Assembly (NCBI RefSeq): GCF_014252275.1
Contig: NZ_CP059214.1
Coordinates: 187,906-251,905 of the forward strand
Source: Blattabacterium cuenoti
Lineage (GTDB): Bacteria; Bacteroidota; Bacteroidia; Flavobacteriales; Blattabacteriaceae
Reading direction: 5' to 3'
Length of the DNA stretch: 64,000 nucleotides
Below are positions 39,694-49,706 of the stretch, in pieces. The stretch's first letter is position 1; the number at the start of each line of letters is the position of its first letter. The notes beneath the pieces are model-generated. The model was given only the letters and a program-made list of their open reading frames with translations, ran no database searches and was not told the origin of the DNA. The position numbers were made by a program, and so were the translations under genes.

Positions 39694-40002
39694 ATGATGA
39701 ACATGAAAAAAAATATAATTATAAGAATTTTAACAGGAAAGTTTTTGGTGGATAAAAATGCTTATCAAGTTTGGTACTTCCTGATTTATATCACGTTTTT
39801 ATCTTTTATTAGTATTACTAATTCGCATTTAACTGTTTACCAAATACAAAAATGTCTATGTATGAAAAAGGAAGTCGAAGAATTGCATGCTGAATATGCG
39901 GATGTACATCATACATATATGAAAATGAAGTTTTTTTATTTTCTTCATAAAAAAGATCCTAACATCTTGAAAACATTTCAACAATCTACATCTATGATGT
40001 AG
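39694..40002 (+). CDS. ftsL: FtsL-like division protein
   Basis: 102 residues with a cytoplasmic N-terminus, one membrane segment (about 28-45) and a predicted periplasmic helix, the layout of the Bacteroidota FtsL-like family found between rsmH and ftsI. FtsL normally forms a complex with FtsQ/FtsB and helps activate FtsW-FtsI. It starts 2 bases after rsmH. Sequence similarity of FtsL proteins is always low, so position carries weight. Confidence 0.85.
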   Translation: MMNMKKNIIIRILTGKFLVDKNAYQVWYFLIYITFLSFISITNSHLTVYQIQKCLCMKKEVEELHAEYADVHHTYMKMKFFYFLHKKDPNILKTFQQSTSMM

Positions 40003-40049: not shown

Positions 40050-41102
40050 ATGATGAAGGAGGCTATGAACGATGGAAATGACATCATCATGAAATATGAA
40101 GAGGAAAGAATCATCCATGAATTATTATATAGATCATATTCTCTTGCTTTTTTATATCTATGTTTTTCTTTAGTTCTTATATCTCATTTATTATATCATC
40201 AATTTTTCGTAAAAAATAAGAAAATAATAAGAATCGTCCATAGAACCATACGATTGATCAAAAATCATCGTGAACAAGCAAAAGAAAATTTTTTTTGTGA
40301 AGGACATGCTATGTTGTTTATCTATGGAAAAAAATATAACATATTTGTTGATTTTCAATCAATTTCCAATGTAGTATTTTCAGATAATGTCAAGGAATTA
40401 TCTCGTTCATTATCCTGTTTATTTCATCAACCAAAAAGTATCATTTATAAACGACTTTGGAAAGAAAAAAAGAAAGGGAACAGGTATTTTTTTTTAGCAA
40501 AAGGTCTAGATTATAGATATTTTAAAACATTACAAACCCTTCCAGTTTTTCAAAATAAATTGATAAAAAAGGGATTGATCATACAAAAAAAAACATATGA
40601 AATTCCATGTTTAAAAAACAGTGGATTACATAAGGATTTTCCTATTCAAGATGAAAGAATACTCATAAAATTTTCGACACTATTTCATCGATATATGAAT
40701 GGGGAATATGGGAAAAAAATAGAAAAATGGATTATTTACAATATCCTATGGAAAGGATTACAGTGGAAAAATTTCATTATAAATTCAATCAATAAAACGT
40801 ATCCATCATATCCGAATACAATCCATTTATCTATAGAAGATGGAAAATATGATCATAATGATCATCTTCTATTTCGAGAATTGTTTATTGAGAAAACATA
40901 TCATGGAGAACACATTATTATACATCATGAAAAAAATTATCATAAAAACGTTCCTACAATTATTCATATAAGTAAAAAAGATATTTTTTTTCAAAAAAAT
41001 AAGAAAAAAAATATCTTCCCTTTATATCATATAGAATCTAATAAATTAGACCATCTAGGACATGTCTTTAATAAACAAGATGTTATCTATTTCAATGAAT
41101 AA
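40050..41102 (+). CDS. ftsI: FtsI (PBP3) remnant lacking the transpeptidase domain
   Basis: 350 residues in the ftsI position between ftsL and murE. One membrane segment (about 30-50) is followed by a region that resembles the pedestal domain of Bacteroidota FtsI (YKRLWKEKKKGNRYFFLAKGL, FKTLQTLPVF, GLIIQKKTYEIP, YMNGEYGKKIEKWI). The conserved R-G-x-I-x-D-x-x-G segment is degraded. The chain ends around the first strand of the transpeptidase domain; no SxxK, SxN or KTG motif exists here or in the 256 bases downstream. It cannot be a D,D-transpeptidase. Either a decaying gene or a structural leftover. Confidence 0.75.
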   Translation: MMKEAMNDGNDIIMKYEEERIIHELLYRSYSLAFLYLCFSLVLISHLLYHQFFVKNKKIIRIVHRTIRLIKNHREQAKENFFCEGHAMLFIYGKKYNIFVDFQSISNVVFSDNVKELSRSLSCLFHQPKSIIYKRLWKEKKKGNRYFFLAKGLDYRYFKTLQTLPVFQNKLIKKGLIIQKKTYEIPCLKNSGLHKDFPIQDERILIKFSTLFHRYMNGEYGKKIEKWIIYNILWKGLQWKNFIINSINKTYPSYPNTIHLSIEDGKYDHNDHLLFRELFIEKTYHGEHIIIHHEKNYHKNVPTIIHISKKDIFFQKNKKKNIFPLYHIESNKLDHLGHVFNKQDVIYFNE

Positions 41103-41358
41103 GTCTTAAGGTGTTGAACGAAAAGAAATAAAATTAATAATCTATTTTCATGAAGAAAATGATGATAAAATTTCTTATAAATTCTTTCTATTCATCATTT
41201 CTTTTTTGAACATCATGTAATGATAAAAATATAAATCATAAGATGATTATTAGAATATAAAATCCAATTTATGGATTAGATGGATAAATATTGAACGATA
41301 ATCTATAGAATTATTTCTTCAACGTTATTATGAAATTCACAATTATAGAAGAAAGAAC
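41103..41358. other. Gap after truncated ftsI, likely eroded DNA
   Basis: 256 bases with no recognisable gene where roughly 1 kb of FtsI transpeptidase coding sequence would be expected. I find no transpeptidase motif in any frame, so the domain appears deleted rather than frameshifted. The promoter for murE may lie here. Confidence 0.55.
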
Positions 41359-42813
41359 ATGAAAAAATCATTAAGATTAGTTTTAAAAAATGTAAATATT
41401 TTAAAAAAAATAGGTACATGTGAGGATAAATATGTTTTTGGGATTTCTATCCATTCTAATATGGTCAAGAAAAATATGATTTTTGTTGCAATTCAAGGAA
41501 AAAAAATAGATGGTCATATTTTTATTATCGATGCAATCAGAAAAGGAGCAAATACTATTGTTTGTGAACAGCTTCCTTTACATATCCATTTAAATGTAAT
41601 GTATGTATTAGTTTTGGATTCGATAGAAGCTTTAGGAATGATCTCTTCTAATTTTTATGAAAATCCTACAAAAAAGATAAAATTGATAGGAATCACGGGA
41701 ACTAATGGAAAAACATCTGTTGCTTTTTTATTACATAAGTTATTTTCTAAAATGGGAGAAAAAAATATTCTTATATCCACAATAGGAATTAAAATTTTGT
41801 CCAAGGAATATGAAACGATCCATACCACTCCGAATATTATCGAAATAAATAAATATTTATATTTATCAATCAAAAAACAGTGTAAATATGCTTTTATGGA
41901 AGTAAGTTCACATGGAATTCATCAAAAAAGAATCAGTAGATTATTCTTTCAAGGAGGAGTATTTACGAATATCACACACGATCATCTAGACTATCATATA
42001 TCGTTCGATCACTATTTATTGACGAAAACCTTGTTTTTCAAAAATTTATCAAAAAATTCTTTTGCTTTAATTAATTATGACGATGTCCATGCTTCTCATT
42101 TTAAGAAAGATATTTCTGCTAAAATATATTCTTATGGATTGAAAAATCATTACGATTTTCATGTTAAAATATTGCATCAAGATTTTCATGGTACTCAATT
42201 ATTAATTGATAAACATCCAATTTTGATTCAGCTAATCGGAAAGTTTAATGCTTATAATATATTATCGAGTTATGCGGTTTCTATATTATTGGGAATAGAG
42301 AAACATAAAATATTAAAAATATTACAAGAAATCTCTTCAATCAAGGGACGTTTCGAACAATTTGAATCGTATTCAGGAATTCGTATTATTGTTGATTATG
42401 CTCATAATCCTAATGGATTAGAAGAAGTTTTAACGACCATTGAAAAAATGAAACAAAATGATGAAAAATTAATATGTGTTATAGGATGTGGAGGAAATCG
42501 AGATAAAAAAAAACGTTCTTTAATGGGAAAGATTGCTTATGAAAAATGTGATGTATCTATTTTTACTTCCGATAATCCTAGAGAAGAAGATCCTAATGAA
42601 ATTATAAAAGATATGAAAAACTTTCAATCATGTGTCAAAAACCATTCAATTTTAACTATTGTGAATAGAAGAATTGCCATAAAAAAAGCAATTCAAATAG
42701 CAAATAAAAAAGATGTTGTTTTAATTGCCGGAAAAGGTCATGAAAATTATCAAGAAATTAAAGGACATCGTTATGCATTTAATGATATGAATGTGGCCAA
42801 AGAATTCCTTTAA
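41359..42813 (+). CDS. murE: UDP-MurNAc-tripeptide synthetase (meso-DAP adding)
   Basis: Mur ligase adding the third stem residue. 484 residues. P-loop GITGTNGKTS, MEVSSHGIHQKR, DHLDYHISFDHY, IVDYAHNPNGLEE and the DNPR motif (SDNPREEDP) that marks specificity for meso-diaminopimelate are all present, plus AGKGHENYQ at the end. It looks fully functional. Confidence 0.97.
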   Translation: MKKSLRLVLKNVNILKKIGTCEDKYVFGISIHSNMVKKNMIFVAIQGKKIDGHIFIIDAIRKGANTIVCEQLPLHIHLNVMYVLVLDSIEALGMISSNFYENPTKKIKLIGITGTNGKTSVAFLLHKLFSKMGEKNILISTIGIKILSKEYETIHTTPNIIEINKYLYLSIKKQCKYAFMEVSSHGIHQKRISRLFFQGGVFTNITHDHLDYHISFDHYLLTKTLFFKNLSKNSFALINYDDVHASHFKKDISAKIYSYGLKNHYDFHVKILHQDFHGTQLLIDKHPILIQLIGKFNAYNILSSYAVSILLGIEKHKILKILQEISSIKGRFEQFESYSGIRIIVDYAHNPNGLEEVLTTIEKMKQNDEKLICVIGCGGNRDKKKRSLMGKIAYEKCDVSIFTSDNPREEDPNEIIKDMKNFQSCVKNHSILTIVNRRIAIKKAIQIANKKDVVLIAGKGHENYQEIKGHRYAFNDMNVAKEFL

Positions 42814-44024: not shown

Positions 44025-45379
44025 ATGAAAAAAGAATTAATAATAATATTAGGAGGAGGAGAAAGTGGAATTGGTGCTTCTCTTTTGGCCCTAAAAAATG
44101 GATTTAAAATATTTTTATCCGATTCCGGAAAAATTTCCAATAAATACAAAAAAATTTTGTATAAATATCAGATTCCTTTTGAAGAAATGGGGCATTCTGA
44201 AGATTTTATTCTAAAAAATGCTTTTCAAGTGATTAAAAGTCCAGGAATATCTAGAAATAATGCTTTTATCAAAAAAATTGATTCGTTAGGGATTCCTTTA
44301 GTATCGGAACTAGAATTTGGAAAAAGTTTTCTAAAAAATTCTTATATCATCAGTGTCACAGGAAGTAATGGTAAAACTACAACAAGTACGATAATATACA
44401 ATATCCTAAAAAGTGATAAAAAGTTTTGTGTAGGATTAGCGGGAAATATTGGAAGAAGTTTTTCTAAAGAATCTATAAAAAAAAAAGTTTTTATGTATTA
44501 GAAGTAAGTAGTTTTCAGTTGGATGACTGTTTTCATTTTCGTTCAAATATTGCCATAATGTTGAATATTACAAGAGATCATTTAAATAGATATAATAATA
44601 ACATAGAAAATTATGTAAATTCTAAATTTAGAATAGCTATTTTTCAACATAAAAACGATATATTGATATATAATTATGATGATCCTATTATTAGAAATGG
44701 ATTAAAAAAATTTTTGTTAAAATCTATATGCATTCCCTTTTCTATTAAAAAAGAGTTAAATTTTGGAGCATATTTAAAACAAGATAAAATATACATTCGT
44801 AATAAAAAACGTTTATCCAAATATTTGTTAAAAAATATTTCTTTATCAGGAGATCATAATGTATATAACATAATGGCATCGTTAATTGTATCTGATATTT
44901 TGAATGTACAAAGAAAATCTATTTGCTCTGTGATTCATCATATGACTGGACTTCCCCATCGAATGGAAAAATTTTTTCATATGAATGGAGTGTTGTTTAT
45001 TAATGATTCCAAATCAACCAATGTACATTCTGCTTGTTGTGCATTAAAAAGCTTAAATAATCCTATTATATGGATCGCAGGGGGAAAAGATAAGGGAAAT
45101 GACTATAAAGATTTAATTCCATTAGTGAGCAAAAAAGTTAAAGTGATGATTTGTTTAGGAACACATAATCATAATATTTACAATTTTTTTAAAAAAATTG
45201 TAAATATTATATTGGAAACAAATAGTATGAAACAAGCTGTAAGGATGGCATATAAATATGCTTCTCAAGGAGATAGTATATTATTATCTCCTTCATGTTC
45301 GAGTATGGATCTGTTTAAAGATTATAGAGAAAGAGGAAATGAGTTTAAAAAAGAAGTCAAACAACTTTTTTATGAGTAA
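44025..45379 (+). pseudogene. murD: MurD, D-glutamate ligase, interrupted by a frameshift at an A10 tract
   Basis: Two frames together give a full-length MurD (~451 residues). The first part (44025-44501) has the N-terminal Rossmann domain and P-loop VTGSNGKTTTST. At 44477-44486 a run of ten A (ATA-AAA-AAA-AAA) shifts the frame to a stop at 44499-44501. The second frame resumes at once with YVLEVSSFQLDD and runs through NITRDHLNRY, INDSKSTN, WIAGGKDKG and the end at 45379. One added A would restore the gene. MurD is essential for peptidoglycan, so transcriptional slippage or an assembly error is likelier than true loss. Confidence 0.85.
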
Positions 45380-46601
45380 GACTATTAGTACTTTTATTAA
45401 AAAGTATATTAAAGGAGATAAATATTTATGGGCTCTGATCCTATTGTTATCTCTATTTTCTTTCCTTCCAGTATATTCTGCGAATGCTTCTCTTTTAACT
45501 CATATTAATCCTCATCATCCTACTCATCCATACAATATATATGTTCCTTTATTCAAACACGCAATTTTCTTAATTATCGGATTAATTATTCTTTTTTTTA
45601 CTCATTTTATTGATCATAAATATTTTTATCATTTATCTATTTTTTTGATTCCTTTAATGGTGTTTTTATCATGGATGACTTTATGTCAAGGATTCTATAG
45701 GGCTGGGGTCCCAAGATGGTTACAGATTCCTTTCACTTCTTTATCGTTTCAAACGTCTAATCTTTCAGGATTATCTTTACTTATTTATTGTTCGAGAATT
45801 CTTTATATAAACAGACATAAACCAATTACTATTTCTAACACATTTTTTCCATTATTATTTCCTATATTTAGTGTCCTTTCTTTTATTCTTCCTGCGAATG
45901 GATCTACTTCCATTATTATGTTTATTTCTGTATTATGCTCCCTTTTCTTAGGAAGATACCCGTTTCACAAACTCATACTTGTATTGTTTATGGGAACAAT
46001 GATCTCTTGGATCTACATGTTTGTTGTAGTCAAATGTGTTGGTGGAGAAAATCATTATACCATTCAGAGGATCTACACATGGAGGCATCGTATTGAAAAT
46101 TTTATGAAGGCTCAAGAAGACGAAAATTCTCAAATAATGCAAGCAAAATCGGCTATTTTTTCCGGAAAAAAATGTGGACGTGGACCAGGAAAAAGTGTAT
46201 TTAAATTTTTGTTGCCACACATAGTTTGTGATTTTATTTATGCTCTTATTATTGAAGAATATGGATGTTCCATGGGAATTTTATTGATATTAGTCTATCT
46301 TCTTATTTTATTCAGAATTTTGATTATTTCAACGAAAGCAAACGATTATTTTGCTTCTTTGTTAGTACTATCCGTTGGGTTTCCTATTGTTCATCAAGCA
46401 TTCGTAAATATTGGTGTAAACATAGGATTAATTCCAGTGACAGGACAACCGTTACCATTAATCAGTGCTGGAGGAACCTATCTATGGGTCACTTTTTTTA
46501 GTTTTGGAATTATATTAAGTGTCAGTCGAATGATTGAGGAAAGAGATCAAATGATTGAAAAAAAATATAAGGAATATAAAAATAGAAAAGAACGATTTTG
46601 A
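45372..46601 (+). CDS. ftsW: FtsW/RodA-family peptidoglycan polymerase
   Basis: SEDS glycosyltransferase of the divisome; it normally works with FtsI. I take the ATG at 45372 (409 residues, MSKTISTFIKKYIKG), which overlaps the murD end by 8 bases; an open frame begins further upstream inside murD. About ten membrane segments, RWLQIPF, GRGPGKSVFKFLLPHIVCDFIYALIIEEYG with the conserved catalytic-loop residues, and LPLISAGGT near the end. It appears intact although its partner FtsI has no transpeptidase domain. Confidence 0.94.
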   Translation: MSKTISTFIKKYIKGDKYLWALILLLSLFSFLPVYSANASLLTHINPHHPTHPYNIYVPLFKHAIFLIIGLIILFFTHFIDHKYFYHLSIFLIPLMVFLSWMTLCQGFYRAGVPRWLQIPFTSLSFQTSNLSGLSLLIYCSRILYINRHKPITISNTFFPLLFPIFSVLSFILPANGSTSIIMFISVLCSLFLGRYPFHKLILVLFMGTMISWIYMFVVVKCVGGENHYTIQRIYTWRHRIENFMKAQEDENSQIMQAKSAIFSGKKCGRGPGKSVFKFLLPHIVCDFIYALIIEEYGCSMGILLILVYLLILFRILIISTKANDYFASLLVLSVGFPIVHQAFVNIGVNIGLIPVTGQPLPLISAGGTYLWVTFFSFGIILSVSRMIEERDQMIEKKYKEYKNRKERF

Positions 46602-49074: not shown

Positions 49075-49404
49075 ATGAACAAGAATAAATTATTATTTAT
49101 TTTTTCCTTGTATATCCTTTGCATGATATTTTTTTCGTTTTCTTCTGTAAAAAATCATCGAAATAGAAAAATTCAATCAATACATATTGATGTAGATTCC
49201 AAGGGTTATTGGTTAAATAAAAATCTTCTTGATAAGATTCTATTCCAAAAAATAGAAAAAATTGATAAAAAAATCGGTCAATTATGTATATTGGAAATGG
49301 AGAAAAAATTAAATAATGATCCATTTATAAAAAAAACTGATGTTTTTTTCAGTGTGGACGGAACACTACATATAAATATTTTTCACAAAAAACCTATTTT
49401 TTAA
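49075..49404 (+). CDS. ftsQ: Truncated FtsQ (POTRA part only)
   Basis: 109 residues in the ftsQ position between murC and ftsA. A membrane segment (about 7-23) is followed by a POTRA-like region ending in the typical DGTLHINIFHKKPIF. FtsQ is normally about 230-260 residues. The TAA at 49402-49404 falls inside the normal coding path: behind it the same frame continues with DKKYYCIRYKKK, which resembles the next FtsQ segment, before a further stop. So an in-frame nonsense change, followed by decay, is the likely cause. Confidence 0.8.
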   Translation: MNKNKLLFIFSLYILCMIFFSFSSVKNHRNRKIQSIHIDVDSKGYWLNKNLLDKILFQKIEKIDKKIGQLCILEMEKKLNNDPFIKKTDVFFSVDGTLHINIFHKKPIF

Positions 49405-49706
49405 GATAAAAAATATTATTGTATCAGATACAAAAAAAAATGGAAATTATTCCATTGTTCTTAACATAAAAGAACAATGTTTTTTGATAGTCAAAGACTG
49501 GATAATAAAGAAATTATTTATCACATAAATTCTTGTTAAATTTATGAAAAATTAATGCATACATGAGAAAAGAATTCGTTCGTTATAATTTCTTATAGCA
49601 TGAAAAAAAAAACAAAACAAAAAATACCTAAATATAATTAGGTCGATATCGATAATCGAAAAGGATCGATTTGCAATATAAAGAACAAATAGTCGAAAAA
49701 AAAAGT
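49405..49706. other. Eroded ftsQ 3' remnant and ftsA upstream region
   Basis: 302 bases without an intact gene. The first ~55 bases still read like FtsQ (DKKYYCIRYKKK in frame, then MEIIPLF in the -1 frame after an A9 run, compared with the family pattern YY.D..G.KMPLS). The rest shows nothing recognisable and presumably holds the ftsA promoter. Confidence 0.6.

Follow-up and report, generated by a model that had tools for sequence, protein, structure and literature searches.

Can part of FtsI be kept once its transpeptidase is gone? FtsI counts as an essential enzyme, and the prevailing view is that FtsW, like other SEDS polymerases, requires its cognate class B PBP. The question is raised by the ftsI slot in the genome of the cockroach endosymbiont Blattabacterium cuenoti (a single contig of 561,052 bp, labelled G000), of which a stretch of 64,000 nucleotides, hereafter the window, was analysed. 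An initial annotation had proposed that the shortened gene in this slot is either a structural partner of FtsW or in early decay.

Identity and extent of the remnant

The gene, hereafter X350, is an open reading frame (ORF) of 350 codons that starts with ATG and lies exactly at 40050–41102 on the forward strand. It is flanked by ftsL (39694–40002) on the 5′ side and murE (41359–42813) on the 3′ side, and thus sits in the ftsI slot of the dcw cluster. The cluster looks complete, with rsmH, ftsL, X350, murE, mraY, murD, ftsW, murG, murC, ftsQ and ftsA. Both the 350-codon open frame in this slot and its end before the catalytic motifs had been noted initially, and both were confirmed: X350 ends upstream of SxxK, and SxN and KTG are absent as well.

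When searched alone, X350 had zero matches in Pfam or NCBIfam, and PF03717 (PBP dimerisation/pedestal) did not exceed the Pfam cut-off. The generic pedestal profile is therefore blind to X350, which Pfam and NCBIfam by themselves would have left labelled as an orphan. By tblastn, X350 matched the N-terminal half of full-length FtsI in 43 of 48 congeners, each time at the corresponding locus (E 2e-28 to 4e-42; mostly 33–38% identity; query ~20–309), and a profile of congener FtsI scored it at 1.7e-47 over model positions 7–277 of 658. The profile search suggested initially thus failed with generic pedestal and transpeptidase models and succeeded with the genus profile. The whole homology corresponds to FtsI residues 1 to ~280. 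Judging from slot, synteny and genus profile, X350 is derived from FtsI.

FtsI of the sister genome G009 has 665 aa and comprises PF03717 (62–210, 37.6 bits), PF00905 (265–573) and PASTA (612–664). The last two domains are absent from X350, which consists of a transmembrane (TM) anchor, a pedestal region and the first ~35 aa of the transpeptidase region. Downstream, the transpeptidase/PASTA part was deleted at what is now a 256-bp spacer (41103–41358), in which a search for a remnant found no significant match (best frame 4.3 bits). We also considered an in-frame internal deletion sparing the native C-terminus, as the end of X350 (...VIYFNE) resembles the PASTA end (...IIYLKLEE). This was not supported: scored with a C-terminal profile against shuffles, the real tail ranked 73rd of 1001, and local alignments gave p 0.14–0.60.

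A full-length FtsI in relatives together with a frameshift or assembly gap here would point to an artefact of assembly or sequencing, the true gene being full length. Homopolymer errors are possible in this DNA, since murD in the window is split at an A10 run. The full-length relative exists (G009), and X350 has no frameshift or gap; ~300 codons are missing and the rest is only 35% identical to relatives, which base-calling error cannot explain, and there is no third transpeptidase anywhere in the single-contig genome. We give an artefact practically no credence.

The murD gene itself (44025–45379) lies in two frames separated at the A10 run (44477–44486), and its halves, ~55–73% to congeners, are both well conserved. 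Slippage of the polymerase at the run, a recent frameshift or a sequencing error in the homopolymer could each account for the split. In other congeners, murE is split or shortened in G003, G020 and G008, and ftsI in G046, possibly through poly-A frameshifts or sequencing errors.

Transpeptidases across the genus

A whole-genome search with PF00905 found two domains only in the window genome, those of MrdA and a class A PBP (PBP1a). The mrdA gene adjoins rodA and mreD; the second protein we take to be a class A PBP from its 852-codon frame and from family knowledge. Another class B PBP, which the initial annotation had advised seeking elsewhere in the genome, was thus limited to MrdA, and replacement of FtsI by such an enzyme was rejected. 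X350 itself has neither a PF00905 match nor SxxK, SxN or KTG, the hallmarks of FtsI as a class B PBP. Across 49 Blattabacterium genomes, three PF00905 matches were found in 43, in which the FtsI transpeptidase is kept, and two in the remaining six: the window genome, G010, G011, G015, G023 and G039. All six retain the class A PBP and MrdA.

Predicted fold

An AlphaFold2 model of X350 was built on 32 FtsI orthologs. Its overall confidence was poor (pLDDT 52); it contained a long N-terminal helix and a confident block at residues ~101–160 (pLDDT mostly 80–93). Foldseek ranked FtsI of the P. aeruginosa FtsWIQBL complex first (8bh1_B, E 9.6e-4) and PBP3 structures next, and VIA-align superposed model residues 91–185 on P. 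aeruginosa PBP3 75–154 with a moderate Z of 8.1 (79 residues, 2.1 Å). X350 is thus predicted to have the pedestal head fold; as the underlying alignment was made of FtsI orthologs, the structure match confirms the domain assignment and is not an independent test of it. In E. coli PBP3, the equivalent subdomain (88–165) has been described as a candidate protein-interaction module (PMC4038516).

Selection on X350

Selection was modelled with a branch-specific codon model (GY-type, F3x4), using branch lengths from murE, murC, murG, ftsA, rsmH and mraY. Averaged over the window branch, part of which predates the loss of the transpeptidase, ω of X350 was 0.29, against 0.066 on the sister branch, and ω = 1 was worse by 59.7 lnL units. 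Control genes on the window branch had ω of 0.01–0.06. With free branch lengths, ω was 0.126 and ω = 1 was worse by 16.9 lnL units, the branch then being saturated. Synonymous sites are near saturation and X350 is known from one genome. Because they include the time before the loss, such branch averages argue against prolonged neutrality, not against relaxation.

Constraint was uneven and followed the domain map, the head being kept and the linker and anchor motifs largely released. The membrane-anchor segment (residues 22–53, beginning LLYRSYSLAFLYLCFSLVLISHLL; 40113–40208, forward strand, as are the following) had ω 0.25, with 6 of 12 near-invariant positions kept, and is also the segment that survives in the stubs described below, from five other genomes. 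The linker (residues 54–91; 40209–40322), where the former RGNIY motif now reads KENFF, had ω 0.80, indistinguishable from 1. Best conserved was the pedestal head subdomain (residues 92–168; 40323–40553), with 24 of 32 near-invariant positions and ω 0.19. The former anchor motif (residues 192–234, beginning RTLGYDDHRGKAGLEG; 40623–40751) is ordinarily the part under the tightest constraint (background ω 0.025); it kept 7 of 27 near-invariant positions at ω 0.43, and LGYDDHRGK/GLEG is mostly gone, FPIQDERIL standing in its place. The membrane anchor and pedestal-like region that the gene had been said to keep thus come down to a well-kept head subdomain and the TM anchor; little is left of the RGNIY linker or of the LGYDDHRGK/GLEG anchor motifs.

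Is the frame open only for lack of time? An early-stage pseudogene, its catalytic domain lost recently after long relaxation, would fit an ω of 0.29 against 0.066 in the sister lineage, the linker at 0.80, the loss of most anchor motifs, and the relaxation seen in FtsW and FtsL too. Against this, the 350 codons contain no stop or frameshift, although 0.05 neutral substitutions per site would be expected to give ~4 stops. In neutral simulations with the third-position composition of the strain, the probability of no stop was ≤0.017 after 0.05 substitutions per site and no frame was open from 0.1 onwards; the window branch is ~2.3 long. As frames of this length are soon broken under neutrality, chance openness is excluded. 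Over the 273 residues aligned to G009, only 15 whole-codon inserts were found. Nothing significant of the deleted 3′ half is left in the spacer, 75% of the near-invariant residues of the head are kept, and constrained stubs persist in all five members of another clade. Across the two branch-length settings ω stayed at 0.13–0.29, and residues 54–91 alone were compatible with 1. We consider an early pseudogene unlikely. X350 is not a case of ordinary decay, and the early decay proposed initially, understood as unconstrained decay, is not supported, given the rejection of ω = 1 on the window branch, the absence of stops and the concentration of constraint in the head. X350 is probably under selection at the protein level.

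FtsI stubs in five other genomes

In G010, G011, G015, G023 and G039, the gap between rsmH and murE measures just ~350–490 bp, and in each it contains an ORF of 58–71 codons that corresponds to the FtsI N-terminus (for example, MRERYLLLYKSYLVSLLFIFIAILIIYNLISIQNNSDKYKKYVLKRINDLKSFRHSFFKN in G039). These stubs comprise the cytosolic tail, the TM helix and ~25 juxtamembrane residues, and end just upstream of the RGN motif. Their Pfam hits (TMEM156, ETRAMP and others) were sub-threshold TM-helix noise. The stubs had ω 0.16, versus 0.09 for the same segment of full-length FtsI, and ω = 1 was worse by 94 lnL units; each terminal branch of the stub clade rejected ω = 1 alone (10.6–33.6 lnL units). 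It is very likely that the stub proteins are under protein-level selection.

In a tree of six neighbouring proteins, the five stub genomes grouped together as a clade (bootstrap 100), and G009 was the neighbour of the window genome (98). A single loss shared by all six was rejected (AU test of one loser clade, p 0.001); therefore, the catalytic part was lost at least twice. Nothing supports a structural role more strongly than the five stubs, which the initial annotation did not mention.

The 5′ part of ftsI might instead be kept for the operon and not for the protein, through translational coupling, mRNA stability or avoidance of polarity on murE–ftsZ. The cluster is dense and co-directional, and the stub of G010 begins where ftsL ends, start and stop overlapping. 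Such effects would keep the frame open without preserving residues, and ω = 1 is rejected for the stubs and for X350 by models that already exclude stops; moreover, the window tolerates an untranslated spacer of 256 bp. We regard retention for operon reasons as highly unlikely.

Erosion of the septal complex

In the genomes that lost the FtsI transpeptidase, FtsL, FtsB and FtsQ are either absent or trimmed of their membrane-distal parts. In the window, ftsL (39694–40002, forward strand) encodes 102 aa (PF19579, 2.8e-16) and keeps the TM segment and proximal coiled coil, with the C-terminal PPYEL tip lost (ω 0.19, background 0.07). The ftsQ gene (49075–49404, forward strand) is truncated to 109 aa from ~240 aa in relatives; the TM segment and a POTRA-like part remain, the beta domain is lost, and ω is 0.095, like the background. 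FtsB of the window genome has 77 aa, compared with open frames of ~104–118 in most congeners looked at. In the stub clade, FtsL and FtsB measure 81 and 58 aa in G010 and 65 and 59 aa in G039, both genomes having no FtsQ. G023 has an FtsL of 74 aa, an FtsB of 56 aa and an independently truncated FtsQ of 140 aa. In G011, FtsL and FtsB were not found and FtsQ has 231 aa; all three were sought in G015 and none was found.

Three further observations concern these genes. Between the shortened ftsQ and ftsA, ~265 bp (49405–49670) lie where relatives encode the FtsQ beta domain. Beside mnmG in G023 (L139, ~729–1211), a 483-bp tandem duplication with a period of 473 yields two identical shortened FtsB ORFs. 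Finally, FtsB of G038 has just 64 aa (L101, 1298–1492) despite a full-length FtsI, so FtsB truncation can precede FtsI loss.

The ftsW frame is open in all six genomes. In the window (45372–46601, forward strand) it is intact and keeps the Asp of the catalytic region (CDFIYALIIEEYG) and GQPLPLISAGG; its ω is 0.17 versus a background of 0.045. By genome, against the same background, FtsW ω was 0.089 in G010, G039 and G023, 0.141 in G011, 0.168 in the window genome and 0.208 in G015, so that FtsW evolves 2–5 times faster in the losers. RodA ω in the losers was 0.050–0.066 versus 0.064, and there was no rise in RodA, MurG, MraY or MurE. As FtsW ω is up and RodA is flat, the change is specific to the SEDS protein of division. 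Among the five stub genomes, those without FtsL and FtsB show the larger rise. The FtsW motif GQxLPLISAGG is lost in G015 (L055) and damaged in G011 (L054), the frame being open over ~390 codons in both, which suggests that these two FtsW proteins are non-catalytic or decaying. Since FtsW is itself relaxing, even in G011 and G015, which lack FtsL and FtsB, the whole septal complex may be disappearing, a point against the scaffold reading discussed below.

Given the motif loss in G011 and G015, the stub there may serve something else, or the system may be further along the same road. The best alternative role is recruitment of the class A PBP: the N-terminal FtsI segment would bring this enzyme, or PBP2, to the septum and would not serve FtsW. 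In E. coli, PBP3 residues 1–56 (tail, TM and a short periplasmic peptide), nearly the equivalent of a stub, bind PBP1b in a two-hybrid assay (PMC4038516). In addition, the class A PBP and MrdA are kept in all six genomes, and the stub persists in G011 and G015 although their FtsW lost conserved motifs. In E. coli, however, PBP1b binding is thought to involve other regions too, and the rate changes specific to FtsW indicate FtsW as the linked partner. As a general account of the remnants, PBP recruitment seems to us quite improbable.

Discussion

For X350, we lean towards an FtsI that has lost its transpeptidase and is retained in the membrane as a non-catalytic scaffold for FtsW, a reading we consider somewhat probable. 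From known structures, we infer the step from a constrained protein to an FtsW scaffold: in FtsWIQBL, the FtsI TM helix packs on TM8 and TM9 of FtsW, and FtsL touches two pedestal subdomains, anchor and head (PMC7614612). X350 would have arisen when a deletion from the 3′ side removed the catalytic and PASTA domains, and it would still be translated. Its TM helix would lie against FtsW and its head subdomain against FtsL, and X350 would hold this septal glycosyltransferase in place or in an active state, while the remaining transpeptidases (PBP2/MrdA and the class A PBP) would take over cross-linking. The separate clade would have gone further, to the cytosolic tail, TM helix and juxtamembrane segment alone. 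With septal cross-linking no longer dependent on FtsI, the membrane-distal halves of FtsI, FtsQ, FtsB and FtsL would have become dispensable together, and the membrane-proximal core would be retained for its contacts with FtsW.

Counting against the scaffold, the linker beside the membrane seems to evolve neutrally in the window genome, although it would be expected to face loop ECL4 of FtsW. The structural partnership proposed initially is therefore upheld in part. In its favour are the independent, selected TM stubs of five genomes, the joint truncation of FtsL, FtsB and FtsQ, and the retention of FtsW. Conversely, ω of X350 is relaxed about four- to five-fold relative to the sister lineage, the pedestal amounts to head and TM anchor, and the FtsW contact is a putative one. 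More broadly, we see an even chance that two lineages independently made FtsI purely structural, as an anchor with a pedestal head in one and as a transmembrane microprotein of 58–71 residues in the other. FtsQLB–FtsI would then have been trimmed from the membrane-distal tip with FtsW kept, leaving a SEDS glycosyltransferase with a transpeptidase-less partner and septal cross-linking to PBP2 or the class A PBP. These results suggest that part of the job of FtsI is structural and can outlast its enzyme activity.

Natural, selected versions of FtsI free of catalysis would separate its enzymatic from its structural role. The two remnant sizes (TM with head, and TM only) offer ready-made test constructs for the part that FtsW needs. 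The ordered loss of FtsI and of the FtsQ, FtsB and FtsL tips is a rare stepwise record of an essential membrane machine being dismantled in an endosymbiont.

Compared with FtsI/PBP3 of the FtsWIQBL divisome core, X350 shares the ftsL–murE slot of the dcw cluster, the N-terminal TM anchor, the predicted pedestal head fold and homology over residues 1 to ~280. It differs in lacking the transpeptidase and PASTA domains and in its eroded RGN and GYDDHRGK motifs, and the stub clade keeps the tail, TM helix and juxtamembrane piece alone. The G009 protein is the full-length ortholog with the same neighbours and intact PF03717, PF00905 and PASTA. Our literature search found no paper naming Blattabacterium with ftsI; reports beyond its scope are possible. 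Where obligate intracellular bacteria have been surveyed (Wolbachia supergroups B, C and D, Buchnera of Lachninae, and others), ftsI and ftsW had the same percentage in 12 of 12 groups, being kept or lost jointly (PMC10591338), and the table of that survey does not contain the combination of a kept FtsW with a selected non-catalytic ftsI remnant. The likeness is that a host-restricted bacterium dispenses with its septal transpeptidase while RodA–PBP2 may remain (PMC10591338). The difference is that in the Blattabacterium losers FtsW stays and FtsI is decapitated, with its membrane part under selection.
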